8,900 bases of DNA. Source: Candidatus Aminicenantota bacterium. Lineage in GTDB: Bacteria; Acidobacteriota; Aminicenantia; UBA2199. This document shows, piece after piece, positions 162-8,900 of the stretch (position 1 is its first letter; every line of letters begins with the position of its first letter). The notes under the pieces are model-generated. The model saw nothing but the letters and a program-made list of their open reading frames with translations. It made no database searches and was not told the origin of the DNA. Where the stretch lies: the NCBI GenBank assembly GCA_020355945.1, contig CP070627.1:1196872-1205771 (forward strand), in the 5' to 3' direction. Made by a program: the position numbers and the translations under genes.

Positions 162-190
162 TTGATTTTTATGAAAATTTGTGTTAATAA
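162..190 (+). promoter_or_regulatory. Candidate sigma70-like promoter for the oxidoreductase gene
   Basis: TTGATT (162-167) and TAATAA (185-190) are separated by exactly 17 bp in an AT-rich stretch. The -10 matches consensus at only three of six positions, so this is a weak call. Transcription would begin close to 197, giving a leader of about 73 nt and running through the dyad at 193-209. The oxidoreductase and glgX could both be read from it. Confidence 0.35.
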
Positions 191-192
191 AT

Positions 193-209
193 ATCTTTTT
201 GCAAAAGAT
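193..209. promoter_or_regulatory. Operator-like dyad ATCTTTT-TGC-AAAAGAT
   Basis: Perfect 7-bp inverted arms (193-199 and 203-209) flank a three-base centre. The dyad lies directly downstream of the candidate -10 and over the expected transcription start, where a repressor site would act. The binding protein is unknown. AT-rich dyads of this size can arise by chance. Confidence 0.35.
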
Positions 210-269
210 TGCTTCTGTTTTAATGCTGGACCCTTTGGGTTTAATTTCCTGGAAAAACGGAGAACAAGC

Positions 270-1394
270 ATGAGCAAAACTTATGATGTCGTGGTCGTTG
301 GTGGTGGGATTATTGGCATGGCTGTGGCCAGTTACCTCAGTCAGGCAGCGATTAAACTGGCATTAGTTGAAAGAAAATATATTGGTTCCGGTTCTACGAG
401 CCGCTGTATCGGTGGTATTCGCCAGCAATTTTCCACACCCGCTGCTATCCGCTTGATGCAAGAAAACCTGGAACTCTTTTCCCAAATGGAAGAGGAATTT
501 AACCAATCCGTAGAATTTCACCAGGGTGGATATCTTTTCCTGGCCCATACCCGGGAAATGGTAGAGGTATTCAAAAAAAACATTGCTATACAGAAAAAAG
601 AAAAACTAAATGTTTCTTTGTTGTCCCCGGGGGAGGTCAAAGAGGTGGTGCCTCATTTGAATATCGAAGGCGTATTAGCTGGTGCCTATTGCCCGGATGA
701 TGCCCAGGCTTTTCCTTTCCCGGTTGTTGATGGGTACCGGGAAAAAATAATCAAAGGGGGCGGTGAATTGATTATTAGCAACCCGGTGACAACGATTAAA
801 AAAAATAAGCATTTTCAGCTCACGCTTGCCGACGGTACGCTTTTGGAAGCGGATAAAGTACTTTTAAGTGCGGGGCCCTGGACCGGTGAACTGGCTAAAA
901 CCATCGGTCTCGATCTTCCTCTCTTTCCCGAACGCCACGAAGCCATCATTACCGAGCGAATACCTAAATTCTTCGAACCTATGATTGTAGATTACCGCCC
1001 GGATGGGTGTTATTTCCATCAATTGATAAGCGGCCAGGTCATTGCTTGCTATACACCGGTTCCCAATGTACCCGGAATCCATGAAGATGTGTCTTTTGAG
1101 TTTTTACCCCAGGTGGCCTGGCGAATGAGTCGGTTGGTCCCGGAGCTTAAAAAAGCAGCTATTTTGAGAAACTGGTCCGGCTGTTATACCATGACACCGG
1201 ATGGGAACCCTATTGTAGACGAAAGTGAAATCGAAGGGCTTTATATTGCTTCGGGCATGTCCGGTCATGGTTTCATGTTTGGTCCGGCTATTGGCAAATA
1301 CCTGGCCCGGTTTATGCTTACCGGTCAATGGGGAGCTGATTTTTCCGAATTTTCTATCAAAAGAGAATTCAAATCCAAAGAAAGCATGAAATAA
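270..1394 (+). CDS. FAD-dependent oxidoreductase, DAO family (sarcosine oxidase beta-like)
   Basis: Predicted 374-aa cytoplasmic flavoprotein of the DAO superfamily, which oxidises the C-N bond of amines or amino acids. The Rossmann dinucleotide-binding motif GGGIIG is at residues 11-16, after the strand YDVVVV. The acidic residue E34 (VERK) is placed to bind the FAD ribose. The segment GSGSTSRCIGGIRQQF (39-54) is the conserved flavin-contacting region of this family. The C-terminal block from NWSGCYTMTPDGNPIV (301-316) through ASGMSGHGFMFGPAIGK (327-343) is the second FAD contact. Length fits the single-subunit or beta-subunit type. Start: ATG 270 has GGAG seven bases upstream and begins directly at the fold; a TTG at 162 would add 36 residues of non-family sequence. 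No alpha, gamma or delta sarcosine oxidase subunits are nearby, so the substrate (sarcosine, proline, glycine or other) cannot be named. The stop lies 20 nt before glgX, suggesting co-transcription. Confidence 0.88.
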   Translation: MSKTYDVVVVGGGIIGMAVASYLSQAAIKLALVERKYIGSGSTSRCIGGIRQQFSTPAAIRLMQENLELFSQMEEEFNQSVEFHQGGYLFLAHTREMVEVFKKNIAIQKKEKLNVSLLSPGEVKEVVPHLNIEGVLAGAYCPDDAQAFPFPVVDGYREKIIKGGGELIISNPVTTIKKNKHFQLTLADGTLLEADKVLLSAGPWTGELAKTIGLDLPLFPERHEAIITERIPKFFEPMIVDYRPDGCYFHQLISGQVIACYTPVPNVPGIHEDVSFEFLPQVAWRMSRLVPELKKAAILRNWSGCYTMTPDGNPIVDESEIEGLYIASGMSGHGFMFGPAIGKYLARFMLTGQWGADFSEFSIKREFKSKESMK

Positions 1395-1414
1395 CCCCAT
1401 GGGGAGCGATCCCA

Positions 1415-3559
1415 ATGAAGTTTAAAGAACTTGAATTTTTTTCCGGGTATCCGCGGCGCATGCCGTATGGGGCAAATATTGATGCCGGGGGGGTTCATTT
1501 TTCGATTTTCAGTCGGCATGCCACCCGGGTATGGCTGCTTTTATTTGACTCGCCCCATGATGATTCGCCCAGGCATGAGGTTGAGCTGGTTCCCGGGATC
1601 AACCGCACCGGTGATGTGTGGCATGTTTGGGTGAAGGGTCTTGGCCCGGGTCAGTTATATCTGTGGCGGATGGATGGACCATATGAACCGGAAAAAGGGC
1701 ACCGGTTCAACCCGGAATTTCTCTTGCTCGATCCTTATGCCAGGGCTGTCACCGGCAATTATTATTGGAATGCGGCTCACCCGGGACCGGTGCGTTATCA
1801 AGAGGGCAAAGGGGCAAAAGATATGCCTAAGTGTGTGGTTTGTTCGGATAAATTTGATTGGGAACGGGACCGCCCCCTGAACCGTCCGCTGTCAGAGACC
1901 GTGATTTATGAATGCCATGTGCGTGGGCTTACCGCACATAAAAGTGCAAATGTGGAATATCCCGGCACCTTTAAAGGAGTTGTGGAAAAAATTCCTTATT
2001 TTAAAAGCCTGGGAATAACTGCATTGGAATTACTACCGGTCCAGGAATTCGGCGTTTTTCAAGAAGACCGTGAGAATCCCCTTACAGGGGAAAAACTCTC
2101 CAATTACTGGGGATACAATACCGTGGGATTTTTTGCTCCCAATGGAGGTTATTCTGCTTCCGGGACAATGGGGCAGCAGGTCAACGAATTTAAATGGATG
2201 GTTCGGGAACTGCATCGCGCCGGCATTGAAGTTATACTGGATGTGGTGTTTAACCACACGGCTGAAGGCAATGAAAAGGGACCCACCTTTTGTTTTAAGG
2301 GGATCGACAACCGCATTTATTATATGTTGGACCCCATGGATGGCTCTTACCTGGATTATACGGGGTGCGGCAACACCTTCAACTGCAACCACCCGGTGGT
2401 GAGGGATTTTATTATTTCCTGTCTTTACTATTGGGTGCTTTATATGCATGTGGATGGATTCAGGTTTGATCTGGCTTCTGTGCTGGGAAGAGATGAACGG
2501 GGCAATCTTCTTCCCAATCCCCCTTTGCTGGAAAGGATCGAGGAGTATCCTATTCTTAGGGGAACCAAGATTATCGCTGAAGCCTGGGATGCGGCAGGCG
2601 CTTACCAGGTGGGGGAATTTACCGGGAGATGGGCGGAGTGGAATGGGAAATTTCGTGATGATGTAAGACGATTTTGGCGGGGAGACCCGGGAAGCGTCAG
2701 CCCCCTGGCCACACGATTCGCCGGCAGTTCGGACCTGTATGGAGACAATGGCCGCACCCCTCATCACAGTATCAATTTTATCACCTCTCACGATGGATTC
2801 ACCCTCAATGATTGGGCCAGCTATGAACGAAAACATAACCTTGCCAATGGCCACGACAACCAGGATGGGGATGAGCAAAATCTCAGTATCAATCACGGGG
2901 TAGAAGGCCCCACCACAGACCCTCAAATTGATGGGCTGCGCGAACGCCAGATTAAAAACATGCTGGCCACTTTGATACTCTCTTTAGGGGTACCGATGAT
3001 CCTGGGGGGAGATGAATTCCGACGCACCCAAAAGGGGAATAATAACCCTTACTGCCAGAACAATGAAATATCCTGGTTCGACTGGACATTAACCGGGAAA
3101 AACCCCGGTATGGTTCGTTTCACCAGGGAGCTTATCCACTTTCTCAAGAGGCATCCCACCTTAAGAAGGCAAAGTTTTTATCCCGGTAAATTGATCGAAG
3201 AAGATTGTCTTCCTGGTATCACCTGGTATGGAGACAGGGGACAAGCCCCGGACTGGGATGGAAATAACCTCTGTCTTGCCGTATTAATAAAAGGAGAGAG
3301 GGGGATCAAGAAAGAAAATACAGATACATCCCATGATATTTTTATTATGTTTAATGCCAATCTCACCCCCAGGACGTTTCATATTCCTAGGCCTTCCGAG
3401 GGAGGGGTATGGAAAATTACAATAAATACTCAAAACCCTTCTCCCGGAGATATTTATTCGCCGGGCAATGAACCGGAATTGGGGAAAAACAAAACATTTG
3501 CACTTAAAGAACAAAGTTTGGCAGTGCTGGTTGCTTGCCAACTTTCTCGCCTGAGGTAA
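1415..3559 (+). CDS. glgX: Glycogen debranching enzyme GlgX / isoamylase-type (GH13)
   Basis: A 714-aa alpha-amylase-superfamily enzyme predicted to hydrolyse alpha-1,6 branch linkages in glycogen or its limit dextrins in the cytoplasm. Order of domains: a CBM48-type beta-sandwich (about 15-110, with the family signature LYLWRMDGPY at 81-90); the catalytic TIM barrel (about 160-580); and a C-terminal beta domain. The GH13 regions are intact: DVVFNH (276-281); GFRFDLA with nucleophile D352; AEAWD with acid/base E389; and SHDG with transition-state stabiliser D460. The stretch around NGHDNQDGDEQN (478-489) and the GGDEFRRTQKGNNNPYCQ segment (531-548) are typical of GlgX/TreX-type enzymes, and length matches the family (roughly 650-750). 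Start ATG 1415 has GGGGAG (1401-1406) at good spacing. No other glycogen genes are in the window. GlgX versus TreX-like specificity cannot be settled by eye. A run of seven G lies at 1487-1493 within the frame. Confidence 0.93.
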   Translation: MKFKELEFFSGYPRRMPYGANIDAGGVHFSIFSRHATRVWLLLFDSPHDDSPRHEVELVPGINRTGDVWHVWVKGLGPGQLYLWRMDGPYEPEKGHRFNPEFLLLDPYARAVTGNYYWNAAHPGPVRYQEGKGAKDMPKCVVCSDKFDWERDRPLNRPLSETVIYECHVRGLTAHKSANVEYPGTFKGVVEKIPYFKSLGITALELLPVQEFGVFQEDRENPLTGEKLSNYWGYNTVGFFAPNGGYSASGTMGQQVNEFKWMVRELHRAGIEVILDVVFNHTAEGNEKGPTFCFKGIDNRIYYMLDPMDGSYLDYTGCGNTFNCNHPVVRDFIISCLYYWVLYMHVDGFRFDLASVLGRDERGNLLPNPPLLERIEEYPILRGTKIIAEAWDAAGAYQVGEFTGRWAEWNGKFRDDVRRFWRGDPGSVSPLATRFAGSSDLYGDNGRTPHHSINFITSHDGFTLNDWASYERKHNLANGHDNQDGDEQNLSINHGVEGPTTDPQIDGLRERQIKNMLATLILSLGVPMILGGDEFRRTQKGNNNPYCQNNEISWFDWTLTGKNPGMVRFTRELIHFLKRHPTLRRQSFYPGKLIEEDCLPGITWYGDRGQAPDWDGNNLCLAVLIKGERGIKKENTDTSHDIFIMFNANLTPRTFHIPRPSEGGVWKITINTQNPSPGDIYSPGNEPELGKNKTFALKEQSLAVLVACQLSRLR

Positions 3560-3578
3560 CGGTTTCTCTTTCCAGGTA

Positions 3579-3607
3579 TTGATTTCTTTTACAAAATAGG
3601 ATATATT
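3579..3607 (+). promoter_or_regulatory. Candidate promoter with a dyad over the -10
   Basis: TTGATT (3579-3584) and TATATT (3602-3607) are separated by 17 bp; the -10 matches consensus at five of six positions. The -10 lies within an inverted repeat, CAAAATA (3592-3598) and TATTTTG (3604-3610). An outer pair, CCAGGT (3572-3577) and ACCTGG (3611-3616), encloses the promoter. A second weaker -35-like TTGACC is at 3608-3613. The promoter follows the glgX stop by about 20 nt and would serve the short ORF at 3697 and the gene at 3830. The arrangement suggests repressor control, which is an inference. Confidence 0.5.
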
Positions 3608-3696
3608 TTGACCTGGTGACTGGCAAAATGTTAATTCTAACAAAAGGCAATTATAAATCACATTTTCAGAGTTATGAAGCCCATGGAGGTCTGGCA

Positions 3697-3783
3697 ATGG
3701 ATACAAAGAAAATCAATTTAAGGATAAAGGGTTTAGGAGTTAAGTGGAGTTTTACACCGGGAGAACCAGCCAAAATCCCTTGA
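3697..3783 (+). CDS. Short ORF, 28 aa, possibly the broken 5' end of the 3830 gene
   Basis: The ATG at 3697 has a strong GGAGG (3685-3689) seven bases upstream. It opens a 28-codon basic peptide beginning MDTKKINLRIKG and ending in a TGA at 3781. It resembles no family I know. From about 3773 the neighbouring frame, which is the frame of the 3830 gene, stays open and reads like protein (SLEHLKKYQTNPKEQEGT) up to that gene's ATG. Removing one A from the AAAA at 3772-3775 would join the two into one reading frame of about 259 codons. It could therefore be an independent leader or small protein, or the 5' end of a gene split by a frameshift or sequencing error. Confidence 0.35.
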   Translation: MDTKKINLRIKGLGVKWSFTPGEPAKIP

Positions 3784-3829
3784 ACACCTTAAAAAATACC
3801 AAACCAATCCGAAGGAACAGGAGGGAACA

Positions 3830-4477
3830 ATGGAACATGAAAAGATAATCCAGGACGTAAAAGAGCTTTTAAAATTTCCCAATCTTGGCAAGGCTTTATT
3901 TCATAAAATTGAGGAACTAAAATTAATCCTGGCTCGAAATCTTAACGAATACTTGCCAATGCTAAAGAGATCGCCCGGGGAGACAGACACCCGGACCAAT
4001 ACCACCAGGGGTATTAATTTCGAATTAACCAGGGTTTGCGAGAATTTATGGATTCCATCAATACCGGGAAAACCAGAATGTAACCCATATGAAATTATAC
4101 CGCAGCCCCTCATTGACTATATTGTCGATTACCAGGTAAAAACAGGTGTAATTGAAATGAAACCGGGGTTAAGATTACCGGAGGTTCCCGGTGAGGTGTA
4201 TAACCTGACTTTTGAGAAAGGCAACCCTAAATTTATATGGGGAACGATCCGGAAGAGCCATGATGTCACCCCTGATTTCATATATCCGCACCAACAGGCA
4301 AATAAAAGCAGCTTCCCAGCGTTGGAAGAAAATCCCGAAAAAAGTGAAGTAATCAAGCTATTGCTTCATTACCTTTTAAGCAATGATGATTATTATAAAC
4401 ATGTAGCCGCTGAATTCTTTTACCGCTGGAGACCTATAATTGATAGTCAATTGATAACGAAAAGCACCACAGTGTGA
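3830..4477 (+). CDS. Hypothetical protein, 215 aa, unrecognised
   Basis: I do not recognise a family. The start is supported by AGGAGGG (3819-3825) four bases before the ATG. Residues 1-42 are predicted helical and charged (KIIQDVKELL, HKIEELKLILARNL). A polar Thr/Arg-rich stretch follows (about 49-61). The middle is rich in Pro and aromatic residues (ENLWIPSIPGKPECNPYEIIPQPL in the region 71-94, then IWGTI near 136-140). The C-terminus is helical again (VIKLLLHYLLSNDDYYKHVAAEFFYRW, about 174-200). There is no signal peptide, membrane segment or metal-binding motif, and only two Cys (70 and 84). It is probably soluble. It has its own upstream promoter candidate and lies 69 bp before the 3' end of the opposite-strand tRNA-Thr. 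Codon use looks similar to its neighbours. See the short ORF at 3697 for a possible longer original frame. Confidence 0.65.
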   Translation: MEHEKIIQDVKELLKFPNLGKALFHKIEELKLILARNLNEYLPMLKRSPGETDTRTNTTRGINFELTRVCENLWIPSIPGKPECNPYEIIPQPLIDYIVDYQVKTGVIEMKPGLRLPEVPGEVYNLTFEKGNPKFIWGTIRKSHDVTPDFIYPHQQANKSSFPALEENPEKSEVIKLLLHYLLSNDDYYKHVAAEFFYRWRPIIDSQLITKSTTV

Positions 4478-4546
4478 TTTTTGAGCCTATCAAAACGCAA
4501 GGGAAGAAGACCAAAATTCCTTTGTCCTGGAAATGATAGGTGGCAA

Positions 4547-4619
4547 AGCCGATGGGCGGATTTGAACCGCCGACCTTTTGATTACGAATCAAGCGCTCTA
4601 CCAACTGAGCTACATCGGC
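4547..4619 (-). tRNA. tRNA-Thr (anticodon CGT)
   Basis: The minus strand folds into a complete 73-nt cloverleaf. The acceptor GCCGATG pairs fully with CATCGGC. The D stem is GCTC/GAGC around AGTTGGTA. The anticodon stem CTTGA/TCAAA has a C-A mismatch at its base (27-43). The loop TTCGTAA gives anticodon CGT, reading ACG. The T arm is GGCGG-TTCAAAT-CCGCC. The discriminator base is T and no CCA is encoded, so CCA would be added after transcription. The loop sequence matches the CGU-anticodon threonine tRNA type. It has a consensus promoter upstream (4653-4681). The plus-strand frame crossing it is the familiar antisense artefact of tRNA genes. Confidence 0.96.
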
Positions 4620-4652
4620 TTACTCGCACGATTGAGATTTTTATCGCGCTAT

Positions 4653-4681
4653 ATTATAGGCCATTTCATCTGTTTTGTCAA
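4653..4681 (-). promoter_or_regulatory. Consensus sigma70 promoter of tRNA-Thr
   Basis: On the minus strand TTGACA (4681-4676) and TATAAT (4658-4653) match consensus at every position with a 17-bp spacer. The sequence after the -10 is ATAGCGCG, a GC-rich discriminator of the kind linked to stringent (ppGpp) control of stable RNA promoters. Transcription would start near 4646, leaving a leader of about 27 nt before the mature tRNA. Confidence 0.9.
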
Positions 4682-4709
4682 AACCAAAAATTCATTAATG
4701 GGCAAATGA

Positions 4710-4738
4710 TTGACTTTTACTTTTAATTCTGCTATCTT
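4710..4738 (+). promoter_or_regulatory. Sigma70-type promoter of the Yip1-family gene
   Basis: TTGACT (4710-4715, five of six) and TATCTT (4733-4738, four of six) are separated by 17 bp. The predicted start near 4745 gives a leader of about 27 nt containing the GGAGG site. It is divergent from the tRNA-Thr promoter; the two -35 boxes are 28 bp apart. Confidence 0.65.
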
Positions 4739-4761
4739 CATTTCTTGATTTAATTAAAAAT

Positions 4762-4766
4762 GGAGG
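4762..4766 (+). promoter_or_regulatory. Ribosome binding site that fixes the Yip1-family start
   Basis: GGAGG lies five bases before ATG 4772. It overlaps the earlier in-frame ATG at 4760, which therefore has no site of its own and cannot be the start. Confidence 0.8.
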
Positions 4767-4771
4767 AAAAA

Positions 4772-5386
4772 ATGGACTTTAATGCGATTATTAAACGAGC
4801 AATAGCGATTATAACAAAACCCAAAGACGAATGGACAGCTATCCACAGCGAGTCGTTGACAATTAAAGATCTCTATCTTAAATACGCAATCATTCTATAT
4901 GCAATTCCATCTGTTGCGCTCCTGGTGGGATGGCTCATTATGGGACTGCCGATTATGATGACCCTGGTCATGGCAATTTTCTTATATGTCCTAACCATCG
5001 GTGTCCTGTTCTTAATGGGTCTTCTCATTGAGGTAATCGGGTCACAATTTGGAGGCACCAAAGATATGGTCAGCTCCCAAAAACTTGCTGTTTTCTCACT
5101 TACCCCTTATGCTTTAATTGGAATTCTATTCATCATACCCATCGGACGCTTTGCCTTCGGTTCGGGAATTTTTTATCTCATTATGTTGATAAGTTTGTAT
5201 TCCTTTTATATTATGTACCTGGGTGCTCAAAAATTGAAAGGGATTACACAGCCGGATAAATTGCTACCTTTGACATTGATTATGGCGGTAATATGGCTGA
5301 TCCTTATATATATTGCCTATAGAATTAGTGCAAGTATAGCGTTTGAGGCATTTTTAGGCTCATTTCGAGCAGCACTTCGCAGATAA
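4772..5386 (+). CDS. Yip1-family integral membrane protein
   Basis: A 204-aa polytopic membrane protein. The N-terminus MDFNAIIKRAIAIITKPKDEW is typical of bacterial Yip1-domain (PF04893) proteins: an amphipathic helix, then a KPK-x-EW element and the first membrane span. About five hydrophobic spans are visible, near residues 36-56, 62-89, 104-125, 131-151 and 165-184. The polar loop SQFGGTKDMVSSQK (91-104) followed by SLTPYALIG (109-117) is the conserved centre of the family, whose bacterial members have no settled function. The start is set by GGAGG at 4762-4766. It has its own promoter, so it is probably monocistronic. It ends 68 bp from the convergent kinase gene. The C-terminus is short and basic (ALRR). 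Confidence 0.8.
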   Translation: MDFNAIIKRAIAIITKPKDEWTAIHSESLTIKDLYLKYAIILYAIPSVALLVGWLIMGLPIMMTLVMAIFLYVLTIGVLFLMGLLIEVIGSQFGGTKDMVSSQKLAVFSLTPYALIGILFIIPIGRFAFGSGIFYLIMLISLYSFYIMYLGAQKLKGITQPDKLLPLTLIMAVIWLILIYIAYRISASIAFEAFLGSFRAALRR

Positions 5387-5388
5387 TT

Positions 5389-5423
5389 CTTCGCGTTCCT
5401 TCATGCTTCACCGTGTCTTCGCG
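5389..5423. repeat. Degenerate CTTCGCG repeat in the convergent spacer
   Basis: CTTCGCG occurs at 5389-5395 and again at 5417-5423, exactly 28 bp (four heptads) apart. Two further CTTC cores lie between them at 5399 and 5406. This resembles the decayed CTTCGCG/CTTCGTG repeats seen between genes in many environmental bacterial genomes. The surrounding 68-bp spacer (5387-5454) shows no convincing terminator hairpin for either gene. Confidence 0.5.
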
Positions 5424-5454
5424 GCTCACTCCCCCCTGTGGTTAAAAAATAAAT

Positions 5455-8172
5455 CTAATCTCCCGGCAATTCAAATACCACCTTAACCGTAAACCAGACC
5501 GACCTTGGCTCCCCTCCTATAATAAAAGGCTCATACTTCCACTTCTTTACAGCTTTTTTCGCCGCATGCCTCAACAATATATGACCATCTGTGACCTCCA
5601 CCTCGGTCACATTCCCATCCATATCAATAACCACCTCAAGCCGAACAATACCGGAAACCCTCTTTCTTATGGCCCTCCTGGGATAAACTGGCTCTACTTT
5701 TCTTATCCACCGGGGCTCTTTAACCATGGGGATCAAATCTTCAAGCATCCGATCAAGTTTCCTTTTGACTTCCCGGACATGCCTCCCATAGGGATATTTT
5801 CGGATATATTCATCAAGGTTCCACACCTCCCCACCGCGAATCGCATTGAGATAGGCTTCATCATCGGCTTCTTTCCCAGCCTCTTTTTGTTCCTGGTCCC
5901 TGGTTTTCTCAAGGATTTCCCTTTCCAATTCTAACAGTTCACGGGATGGGTAAATATTCTTTGCCAGTTCCAGGTAATGTTGAGCCTTTTCCAGTTGACC
6001 ATGGAGGAAATAAACCCTGGCCCACCGGGTATATTTTTCATACTCTTGCTGTGTCTGTTCCTTCAAATCTTTCAGCTTCTCTTCCAGCCGTTTAAGCAGC
6101 TCATTGTTTTTCACCTTCCTGGCTTTTTTAATCTCCGCTTCTGCTTTTTCATAATCCCCATCGTCCATGTACTCTTGAGCCTTTTGCAAAGTTTTTATAT
6201 ATTCGCTTTCTTCTTGCCGCTGTTGGGCTGCCACTACCAATTCCCGATTCACTTCTTTTTCCAATTTTAAAAGTCTTTCATCCGCTTTTATTTTTTTTAA
6301 AGCGTTGATGAGCTCTTTGGCGTGTGTGTAATCTCCATCGACGATATTCTCTTGCACCAGGGCCAAACCCCTTTCATACTCTTCGTCCCTCTCCTTGATC
6401 TTACGTTTTACTTGCAGTTCCAGGGAGGCCAATTGAGGTGTATCCTTTATTTTTCGGGCAATTTCTATATTCATTAAAGCTTCTTCATAATCCCCTTGCC
6501 GGTAAGAACGCTGCGCTTCCTGGTAAAACTTTTTATAACTATCCTGCAATTCCTTCTCCATTAATCGTTTAATGGTTTGCTCCCATTCCAACAACTCATC
6601 GGTTTCTTTGATTTCCCTGGCCCGGGCAATCATATCTAAGGCTTTTTTGTACTCTTTGCCTTTTACCAGGTCTTTGGCAATATCCAGGTAGGCATCATAC
6701 CTCGCCTGGTTCCTTAGCTTTTCTTTTTCTTCTTCGGGCGAGATTTCCGGCTTTGTCACTTTAGCAGGCGGAGGTTTGACGGTTTCGACGGGTTCATCCT
6801 TTTTGGGGATATCTTCAACTTTTTCCCGGGTCGGTTTATTTGTTTTCTCTTTAGGTGCTTCATGCGGCGCCTTCTGTCTGGCTGCCACCGGGGTTTTTAT
6901 TGTTAGTTTTACATTAGTCGGGGGGGGTGGTTCGCGTGCTTTGCCCTGGTTATATACAAAAAAATAAAAAAATAATCCCGCCGCCGCTGTCACCAGGAAT
7001 CCGATAATAAACCACCACCCCCGGAGATTGGATGGTTTTCGGGGTTCAACATCAACGATGCGGCCGCCCTCCTTTATTGTTGGTTCTTTTATCCCCAGTT
7101 TATCAATTATTTCATAGATATCGATCCTATTTCCCGGGTCCAGGCCCATCATATCCAGGAGAATTTCTTCATAGAGGAACCTCTCCGTGGGATCAAGACC
7201 TTCTTTTTTAATTTTATCCTTAACCAATCGTCGATAGAAGAATGAATGGCGCAAACTTTCTTTGATTTCAGCCATATGTGTCCTGTCGAAACGATCCAGG
7301 CTTTCACATTTTTGTAATATTTCTTTTAGTTGTTGATTTTCTTCCGGATTTAATTTAATCTTTTGATAGGTTTCCCCGGCGAACAGCCGGGCAAAGGCAA
7401 CGCCTGCTGAAAAAATATCCACTTTGGATGTTATGTTTTCCCGGTTGTAAAACATTTCCGGGGCAATATACCCGATGGACCCGCAGTAAAGATATTCTTT
7501 CGAGTCGATGAAGTCGCGTACTTTCCAGTAGAACTCGAAATCGCCGATTTTCAAACGATCATCCACCAGGAACAAGTTTTCCAGTTTAATATCGAAGTGA
7601 GCGCGGTTTTTTGCGTGAATAATGCTTAAGCCTTTTAAAAATTCCCGGAACCATTTGAATTTTTTTTCAAAACTTTCATCCAGCTTATCTTCCAAAAGGG
7701 CAGCGGCTTTTTCCCAGAAACTGACATACACGGTTTTATCAAACAATATTTCATTCTTTTTTTTCAGGCTTCTGTAATAAAGGCCTTGAACCGGCATAGA
7801 GGGATAGAGGACATCCAGGAAAGATTGTTTGTAATCTTCTCCCATTAGTTCGATCACACTATCGAACTTACCGGTAAAATCTTCATCATCATAGCTCATC
7901 CTCAGGGCGGTGAATTTTTTATCGTACAGGCTCAAAAATGTAAAACTGGTTCTGCCTTTTCCCAGCACGGTTAATATTTTAAATACTTCTTTTTGTCTAC
8001 CTGCTTTTTCTCTCAAGAGTTTGATATGGTGTTGGAATTCCTGGTTCTCGACTTTTTTATAGAATTCCTTCAGGGAGATTGGGGAAAGGTGAAGTTCCCT
8101 GGTGATAGATTTTTTCTGTTTTGCCCACATTTTCATATCTTTCATTCTAAACCAACAACGAGAAATTTGCAA
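5455..8172 (-). CDS. Transmembrane Ser/Thr-kinase-like protein with TPR-like repeats and a TonB C-terminal domain
   Basis: A 905-aa fusion. Kinase-like domain, about 66-360: Gly loop GKG (71-73), catalytic loop HFDIKLEN (192-199; D194, K196, N199), DFE (211-213) in place of DFG, APE (237-239), VDIFSAG (251-257) and a late DPGNRIDIYEI helix with R349. The beta-3 position is ALR (89-91), so the usual VAIK lysine appears to be Arg. One membrane span lies at 386-408. A Pro/Lys-rich linker (410-480) follows, then five TPR-like repeats of about 55 residues (489-757), a short DEYIRKYPYGRH element (787-798) and a TonB_C domain (about 818-905: EPVYPRRA, GIVRLEVVIDMDGNV, AVKKWKYEPF). The topology should be a cytoplasmic kinase and a periplasmic C-terminal half. 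There is no ExbB/ExbD nearby and no His in the span, so classical TonB energy coupling is unlikely. Start: TTG 8172 with AAGGA at 8181-8185; ATG codons at 8145, 8136 and 8130 lack such a site. It follows the NlpC gene by 88 bp on the same strand. It may be a signalling kinase or a pseudokinase scaffold. Confidence 0.88.
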   Translation of the reverse strand: MQISRCWFRMKDMKMWAKQKKSITRELHLSPISLKEFYKKVENQEFQHHIKLLREKAGRQKEVFKILTVLGKGRTSFTFLSLYDKKFTALRMSYDDEDFTGKFDSVIELMGEDYKQSFLDVLYPSMPVQGLYYRSLKKKNEILFDKTVYVSFWEKAAALLEDKLDESFEKKFKWFREFLKGLSIIHAKNRAHFDIKLENLFLVDDRLKIGDFEFYWKVRDFIDSKEYLYCGSIGYIAPEMFYNRENITSKVDIFSAGVAFARLFAGETYQKIKLNPEENQQLKEILQKCESLDRFDRTHMAEIKESLRHSFFYRRLVKDKIKKEGLDPTERFLYEEILLDMMGLDPGNRIDIYEIIDKLGIKEPTIKEGGRIVDVEPRKPSNLRGWWFIIGFLVTAAAGLFFYFFVYNQGKAREPPPPTNVKLTIKTPVAARQKAPHEAPKEKTNKPTREKVEDIPKKDEPVETVKPPPAKVTKPEISPEEEKEKLRNQARYDAYLDIAKDLVKGKEYKKALDMIARAREIKETDELLEWEQTIKRLMEKELQDSYKKFYQEAQRSYRQGDYEEALMNIEIARKIKDTPQLASLELQVKRKIKERDEEYERGLALVQENIVDGDYTHAKELINALKKIKADERLLKLEKEVNRELVVAAQQRQEESEYIKTLQKAQEYMDDGDYEKAEAEIKKARKVKNNELLKRLEEKLKDLKEQTQQEYEKYTRWARVYFLHGQLEKAQHYLELAKNIYPSRELLELEREILEKTRDQEQKEAGKEADDEAYLNAIRGGEVWNLDEYIRKYPYGRHVREVKRKLDRMLEDLIPMVKEPRWIRKVEPVYPRRAIRKRVSGIVRLEVVIDMDGNVTEVEVTDGHILLRHAAKKAVKKWKYEPFIIGGEPRSVWFTVKVVFELPGD

Positions 8173-8856: not shown

Positions 8857-8872
8857 CAGGAGTTGTCAGAAT

Positions 8873-8900
8873 TGCGAAAGGGGGGACTCGAACCCCCACA
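8873..8900 (-). tRNA. Partial tRNA, probably tRNA-Leu (3' end only)
   Basis: The minus strand enters at the end of the variable region (TGT). It continues through a T arm GGGGG-TTCGAGT-CCCCC, the 3' acceptor strand CTTTCGC and discriminator A (8873). No CCA is encoded. The implied acceptor 5' strand is GCGAAAG, which with this T arm and A73 is common for tRNA-Leu. The anticodon lies outside the window, so the amino acid is an inference. Confidence 0.8.

Follow-up and report, generated by a model that had tools for sequence, protein, structure and literature searches.

A kinase fold, a single predicted membrane span and a TonB_C tip in one polypeptide: a probable receptor-like (pseudo)kinase of the cell envelope

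The stretch of DNA analysed here (8,900 nucleotides in full; the window) comes from a bacterium of the candidate phylum Aminicenantes and carries on its minus strand an ORF of 905 codons (5455..8172, listed from TTG 8172) that encodes a kinase-like protein with a TonB_C domain at its C terminus. Upstream of this gene lies a gene for an NlpC/P60-family protein, and upstream of the latter, cut by the end of the window, is the apparent 3' end of a tRNA gene (GGTTCGAGTCC; 8870-8900, minus strand), which the tRNA scans did not call. The plus strand encodes a DAO-type FAD oxidoreductase and an isoamylase-type glycosidase (162-3559), both apparently ordinary based on Pfam, and a 215-aa ORF (3830-4477) without a match in Pfam or NCBIfam. 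An 81-aa ORF (4481-4726, plus strand) covers a tRNA-Thr gene on the opposite strand (4546-4620) and is in all likelihood a tRNA misread as a protein-coding frame. The features of the kinase-like gene and its upstream neighbour are as follows:

5455..8136, minus strand: gene for the kinase-like/TonB_C protein; likely start ATG 8136, alternative start ATG 8130, listed ORF from TTG 8172
5467..5694, minus strand: TonB_C domain, residues 827-902, with YP 830-831 and Trp878 kept (Pfam, NCBIfam and fold match)
5875..6699, minus strand: five TPR-like units of 53-59 residues, residues 492-766 (model and repeat comparison)
6748..6951, minus strand: Pro/Lys-rich disordered linker, residues 408-475 (pLDDT under 50; length varies across the family)
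6952..7020, minus strand: predicted single membrane span, residues 385-407, without His (sequence-based)
7090..8025, minus strand: kinase-fold domain, residues about 50-361 (Pfam Pkinase on 171-321, AlphaFold2 and Foldseek)
7534..7542, minus strand: DFE in place of DFG, residues 211-213
7576..7599, minus strand: catalytic-loop motif HFDIKLEN, residues 192-199
7900..7902, minus strand: Arg91 in place of the ATP-binding (VAIK) beta3 Lys
8144..8172, minus strand: promoter-like element TTGCAA-17-TAGAAT, with identical hexamers and spacing at 8001-8029 of locus L001 in a second genome
8261..8899, minus strand: upstream neighbour, NlpC/P60-family protein (PF00877, E 6.4e-25) with an N-terminal hydrophobic stretch by eye

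The first-pass annotation, made from the sequence alone, had the gene start at TTG 8172, which is probably wrong. Because this codon coincides with the conserved promoter-like element common to L001, we suggest that translation probably begins at ATG 8136 or ATG 8130, the latter of which aligns with the called starts of the homologues P0006, P0011 and P0013; the protein would therefore have ~893 or 891 residues. Over the promoter-like segment, the likeness between the window and L001 is far greater than in the DNA preceding it. The TTGCAA-17-TAGAAT pattern occurs once in the window compared with 0.02 expected occurrences, for a pattern chosen after the fact, and promoter scans gave one site each in the window and L001, against averages of 0.5 and 0.3 in shuffled sequences, so that only conservation speaks for a promoter. 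Five homologues with longer frames (P0003, P0009, P0010, P0014 and P0015) keep WFRM in the upstream stretch; this could reflect a conserved TAGAAT and, equally, a coding N-terminal peptide. If TTGCAA-17-TAGAAT, which is promoter-like by its match to the consensus, is a promoter, the leader would be very short or absent.

Based on Pfam, NCBIfam, AlphaFold2 and Foldseek, together with inspection of the sequence, the ORF encodes, in this order, a kinase fold, a predicted single membrane span, a disordered linker rich in Pro and Lys, five TPR-like units and TonB_C, which bears out the modules, the order and the single span of the first-pass annotation. Kinase-like and TonB_C regions had been placed at residues 66-360 and 818-905; consistently, Pfam matches both above cut-off, Pkinase at residues 171-321 (70.7 bits, cut-off 31.7; E 1.7e-19) and TonB_C at residues 827-902 (67.6 bits, cut-off 24.6; E 1.4e-18), and the NCBIfam model TIGR01352 (tonB_Cterm) scores 44.6 bits compared with a cut-off of 27.1. 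The N-lobe lies outside the Pfam match and is included in the AlphaFold2 model of residues 10-368 (pLDDT 86, pTM 0.85). In Foldseek searches with this model, the best 50 matches listed are all kinase entries (E 8e-11 to 1e-9), and the superposition on solved kinases is moderate (TM-score 0.40-0.50 by query length). The antiphage kinase MAD6 was considered as an identity for the protein and rejected (44.8 bits, cut-off 460). For the outer half, which had been singled out for structure prediction, the AlphaFold2 model of residues 405-905 (pLDDT 78.5, pTM 0.40) has a disordered linker to about residue 475, pairs of long and short helices at residues 479-811 and a beta-beta-alpha-beta end of the TonB_C type. 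The five helical repeats counted earlier correspond to units at residues 492-545, 546-598, 599-657, 658-710 and 711-766, with pairwise identities of 12/54 to 20/53, and are followed by an irregular helical part that extends to about residue 811. With 53-59 residues, the units differ in length from the 34-residue TPR period; the top Foldseek matches listed are TPR proteins at E 2e-4 with a TM-score of only about 0.1, and Pfam TPR_2 matches residues 714-743 with 26.2 bits, slightly below its cut-off of 27. The C-terminal end matches TonB C-terminal domains, namely 6i97_D with a TMt of 0.76 (2.2 A over 82 columns; E 1.1e-3) and 2grx_C with a TMt of 0.77 (E 2.7e-3).

A homologue search returned 55 proteins, which comprise the family of the window protein (P0001-P0021; the window's own protein and 20 metagenomic homologues with 53-78% identity), a family of kinases with an FHA tail (P0022-P0047), other kinase relatives (P0048-P0051) and proteins that match by other parts (P0052-P0055). 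Within the family of the window protein, Pfam finds Pkinase in 21/21, TPR_2 in 19/21 (E<=0.01) and TonB_C in 18/21 members; a recognisable TonB_C was not found in P0009, P0020 and P0021 and, therefore, the tip may be dispensable. The presence of Pkinase in all members and TonB_C in 18 argues that the architecture is not an assembly accident, and a chimera or frame-fusion artefact was rejected because these 18 proteins carry both domains in one frame and derive from different contigs. Among 17 members, the mean pairwise identity is 0.77 for the kinase, 0.71 for the stalk, 0.62 for TonB_C, 0.61 for the span and 0.56 for the linker; the values for the stalk and TonB_C argue that the outer half is also constrained. 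Consistent with the earlier claim that the domain order is unusual, a full-length match is rare in the genomes searched, being present in 1/297 genomes of the phylum of G001 (scoring the best three or fewer candidates per genome), in 1/142 of its class (best six or fewer) and in 1/34 of its family (best 27 or fewer). The FHA-tailed paralogue is found in 4/34 genomes of this last group. TonB_C itself is no rarity there: in the class, 132/142 genomes are matched by the family model, mostly through the TonB_C end among the matches listed. When we searched by the TonB_C end, kinase and TonB_C were combined in 3 of 43 candidates, all from the window protein's family. We also observed single frames with two or three tandem TonB_C domains (L064, L045, L026 and L008) and one protein with TonB_C in its middle and an M23-type peptidase end by eye (L087, 6992-8821, minus strand).

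Two proteins of a different layout, P0053 and P0060, have a strong Pkinase match near the N terminus, TPRs and a C-terminal TonB_C based on Pfam. P0053, whose record names an Acidobacteriota bacterium as the source, has the canonical K/HRD/DFG and, by eye, a span between the TPRs and TonB_C, and its TPRs are therefore presumably cytoplasmic. In a search with P0053 (E<=1e-60), PF03544 was found in at least two of the 50 matches listed, i.e. P0053 itself and P0060. The layouts and the kinases differ between these proteins and the window protein, which suggests that the fusions are independent; if so, a TonB_C tail on a kinase arose at least twice. No published description of a kinase-TonB_C protein was found among the titles and abstract openings of the open-access papers listed.

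Wall-related genes lie upstream of the kinase-TonB_C gene in 2/2 loci, but the genes are different. While the window has the NlpC/P60 gene, L001 has on the same strand (232-7932) genes for a RodA/FtsW protein fused to FHA, a penicillin-binding transpeptidase of 1297 aa, the N-terminal part of which is very long, and a protein of 183 aa that is membrane-like by eye; related RodA/PBP loci are L077, L079 and L080. The RodA/FtsW-FHA and PBP genes of L001 recall the actinobacterial fha-rodA-pbpA-pknA-pknB cluster. We considered that the kinase-TonB_C gene forms an operon with the wall genes; however, several features weaken this idea. In L001, the stop at 7932 is separated from the TTG by 68 bases and from the likely ATGs by about 104-110 bases, an interval that contains the promoter-like element, a terminator-like site (L001 7861-7876) lies inside the 183-aa frame, and the genome G386 has the same RodA-PBP cluster but without a kinase-TonB_C gene after it. 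The shared promoter-like element rather suggests that the kinase-TonB_C gene is expressed separately from the upstream wall genes. In G001, G385 and G386, we also noticed single frames of 1938, 2117 and 2041 aa, respectively, that match RodA and PBP and are apparent fusions.

In 4/4 genomes, the gene directly after the FHA-tailed paralogue encodes a canonical kinase that has one apparent span; next comes, in the same order in all four (L081, L082, L083 and L084), a third gene encoding 718-1011 aa, the product of which matches Big_7, PEGA and others in L081, the one locus scanned with Pfam for this gene. Pfam did not match TonB_C in this canonical kinase (3 of 4 scanned). By eye, its last 110 residues look TonB_C-like, and hhalign gave probabilities of 5.0 (P 0.0079) and 9.3 (P 0.0035) with two TonB_C profiles; the best of 30 column shuffles, made for the first profile only, reached 3.4 (P 0.013). 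G001 has a further pair of adjacent kinases with apparent spans (L086, 4795-9089, plus strand), of which the first has HQD and TGF for HRD and DFG and an Lcl_C end, and the second is canonical and contains one stretch with 30% identity to the repeats of the window protein. By inspection, these arrangements suggest that the lineage has a habit of pairing atypical with canonical kinases and of swapping their outer ends.

The first-pass annotation proposed a cytoplasmic phosphorylation output. In an active-site alignment of 43 clade members (13 from the window protein's family, of which eight members were left out, 26 FHA-tailed kinases and four others), the triad of active kinases (beta3 Lys, HRD Asp and DFG Asp) is incomplete: both Asp residues are present in 43/43, while the Lys is present in 2/43 and replaced by Arg in 41/43, including Arg91 of the window protein. 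The Lys at this column in P0048 and P0051 supports the register of the alignment. H, D, K and N of HFDIKLEN are each kept in 43/43, and the HRD Arg is absent in 43/43. The DFG site reads D[F/L]E in 43/43, so that the metal-binding Asp is kept and the Gly is replaced by Glu throughout. The two glycines of the loop are kept in 43/43; candidates for the alphaC Glu occupy neighbouring, non-identical columns in the two large groups, and none is conserved in register across the 43 rows. With the beta3 Lys changed to Arg, DFG changed to D[F/L]E and no Glu of helix C conserved in register, the proposal of a phosphorylation output is unsupported as stated. An active Ser/Thr kinase, in which Arg91 and Glu213 rebuild the nucleotide site and cytoplasmic targets are phosphorylated when the periplasmic arm binds, would account for the retained catalytic Asp, Lys and Asn, the metal-binding Asp and the loop glycines as well as for the two clade members with Lys; we regard it as unlikely in view of the replaced beta3 Lys, the missing in-register alphaC Glu, the DFG Gly-to-Glu change and the absent HRD Arg, all the more as a Lys-to-Arg change usually abolishes transfer in ordinary kinases. 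O'Boyle et al. (2025; PMC12599244) describe DYD pseudokinases that carry Arg instead of Lys and lack the alphaC Glu, and in which modelling places a salt bridge between this Arg and the acid at the DFG site. By analogy from sequence, Arg91 and Glu213 may offer a pairing that resembles this bridge. The same review describes MviN as a transmembrane protein, the pseudokinase domain of which regulates wall synthesis via PknB and FhaA (PMC12599244).

At the other end of the protein, the question is how much of TonB function the span and TonB_C retain. The C-terminal domain of TonB normally grips outer-membrane proteins, and contact with an outer-membrane receptor had been proposed for the window protein. 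This proposal is weakened by the loss of the YP motif and the Trp in most of the family (YP in 2/18 members compared with 37/39 other TonB_C domains; Trp in 7/18 compared with 39/39, by a looser test), although the window copy keeps both. TonB and TolA bind their motors through a Ser/His motif (SHLS) in the span according to Williams-Jones and colleagues (PMC12204202); the word "kinase" does not occur in the main text of that article. His is absent from the span in all 21 family members including the window protein, whereas a G001 TonB_C protein beside an ExbB-family gene (L088:6631-7374) has Ser-x3-His (SIVLH) in its span. Because the His is missing in 21/21, the kinase-TonB_C protein does not act as an ordinary proton-driven TonB, as had been argued from the span of the window protein; the argument is weaker for the window protein than for its family because the window copy keeps YP and Trp. 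The accompanying statement that the window has no ExbB or ExbD gene holds for the six window proteins scanned, and neither was found among seven proteins scanned in L001; it says little, since motor genes need not adjoin and ExbB-family and receptor-plug genes are present in 5/5 related genomes searched. The latter finding argues that the lineage has an outer membrane and ordinary Ton systems, and together with the TonB_C profile and fold and the long Pro-rich linker, it would fit a TonB-like force transducer with a kinase-like cap, in which a motor pulls and the kinase domain senses or regulates. However, since the span lacks His, the proteins scanned include no motor gene and some 350 residues of kinase fold precede the span, we consider a force transducer highly improbable. 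The losses of YP and Trp and of a recognisable domain in 3/21 members could also mean that TonB_C is a decaying leftover and the TPR-like stalk the working sensor; this is quite unlikely, as the Pfam match persists in 18/21, the domain keeps a mean pairwise identity of 0.62 and the window copy has both motifs.

Altogether, we consider it probable that the protein is a bitopic receptor-like (pseudo)kinase with a Hanks-type fold and a periplasmic arm tipped by TonB_C. The atypical kinase-fold domain, the span, the linker, the TPR-like stalk and TonB_C are conserved as a unit in 21 sequences, and we infer that the kinase is cytoplasmic and TonB_C periplasmic. The kinase relatives of similar build (the FHA-tailed paralogue with its canonical neighbour and the adjacent pair of G001) and the wall-related upstream genes speak for this reading; the different neighbours at the two loci, the three members without a recognisable TonB_C and the moderate superposition of the kinase model speak against it. 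According to this model of a receptor-like (pseudo)kinase, the helical stalk, held on the flexible linker, would pass through the cell wall or run along it, and TonB_C at its end would bind a periplasmic partner, which may be the wall itself or an envelope protein that exposes a strand or peptide. Partner binding would alter the clustering or position of the receptor-like protein. The kinase-fold domain may still hold ATP, with Arg91 and Glu213 standing in for the usual Lys-Glu pair, and would signal either by serving a canonical kinase as scaffold or allosteric partner or by acting as a weak kinase itself. Most likely the signal concerns the state of the envelope or wall, and the make-up of the protein points to an envelope sensor more than to an uptake motor. 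A narrower reading, which we put forward as speculation and think unlikely as a whole, is that of a receptor for contact or tension across the envelope: TonB_C would engage a strand of a protein that is linked to the wall or sits in the outer membrane, the stalk would report the contact or pull, and the atypical, nucleotide-binding kinase fold with its Arg-Glu site would pass the signal to a canonical kinase. If this is true, the TonB grip would serve sensing by a kinase fold without a proton motor; we are aware of no such case in the literature. The usual view of TonB_C is that of a force-transducing grip; its place at the outer end of a kinase-fold membrane protein that lacks the motor-binding His, and the second layout of kinase plus TonB_C, suggest its use as a sensor domain. 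The protein is a candidate for how a cell with an outer membrane informs its cytoplasm of the envelope state through one protein, and with the clade, bacterial kinase folds gain a group whose active site is of the Arg/DFE type.

In comparison with known systems, the window protein is like TonB (PF03544, TIGR01352) in its C-terminal domain, by profile and by fold, in its one span and in its Pro-rich linker; unlike TonB, it has a kinase fold before the span, a helical stalk and a span without His, and most members of its family, though not the window copy, have lost YP. Receptor kinases of the PASTA type, PknB for example, combine a kinase fold, one span and an extracytoplasmic arm. The window protein shares with them the kinase fold, the span, a presumed extracytoplasmic arm and wall-related neighbours in 2/2 loci; it differs from them by having a TPR-like stalk and TonB_C instead of PASTA, a domain that Pfam did not match in the window proteins at E<=1, and by its atypical active site. 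P0053 and P0060 share with it the kinase, the TPRs and TonB_C in one polypeptide, whereas P0053 differs by its canonical K/HRD/DFG and by a span that follows the TPRs by eye. Like the DYD pseudokinases (PMC12599244), the window protein has Arg for the beta3 Lys, an acidic third residue at the DFG site and a link to the membrane; its clade has D[F/L]E in 43/43 rather than DYD, and the DYD group was described from actinobacteria and firmicutes (PMC12599244). The FHA-tailed paralogue (P0022-P0047) belongs to the same kinase clade, has 43-47% identity in the matched part and shares the same Arg and DFE but carries an FHA domain where the window protein has the span, the stalk and TonB_C.
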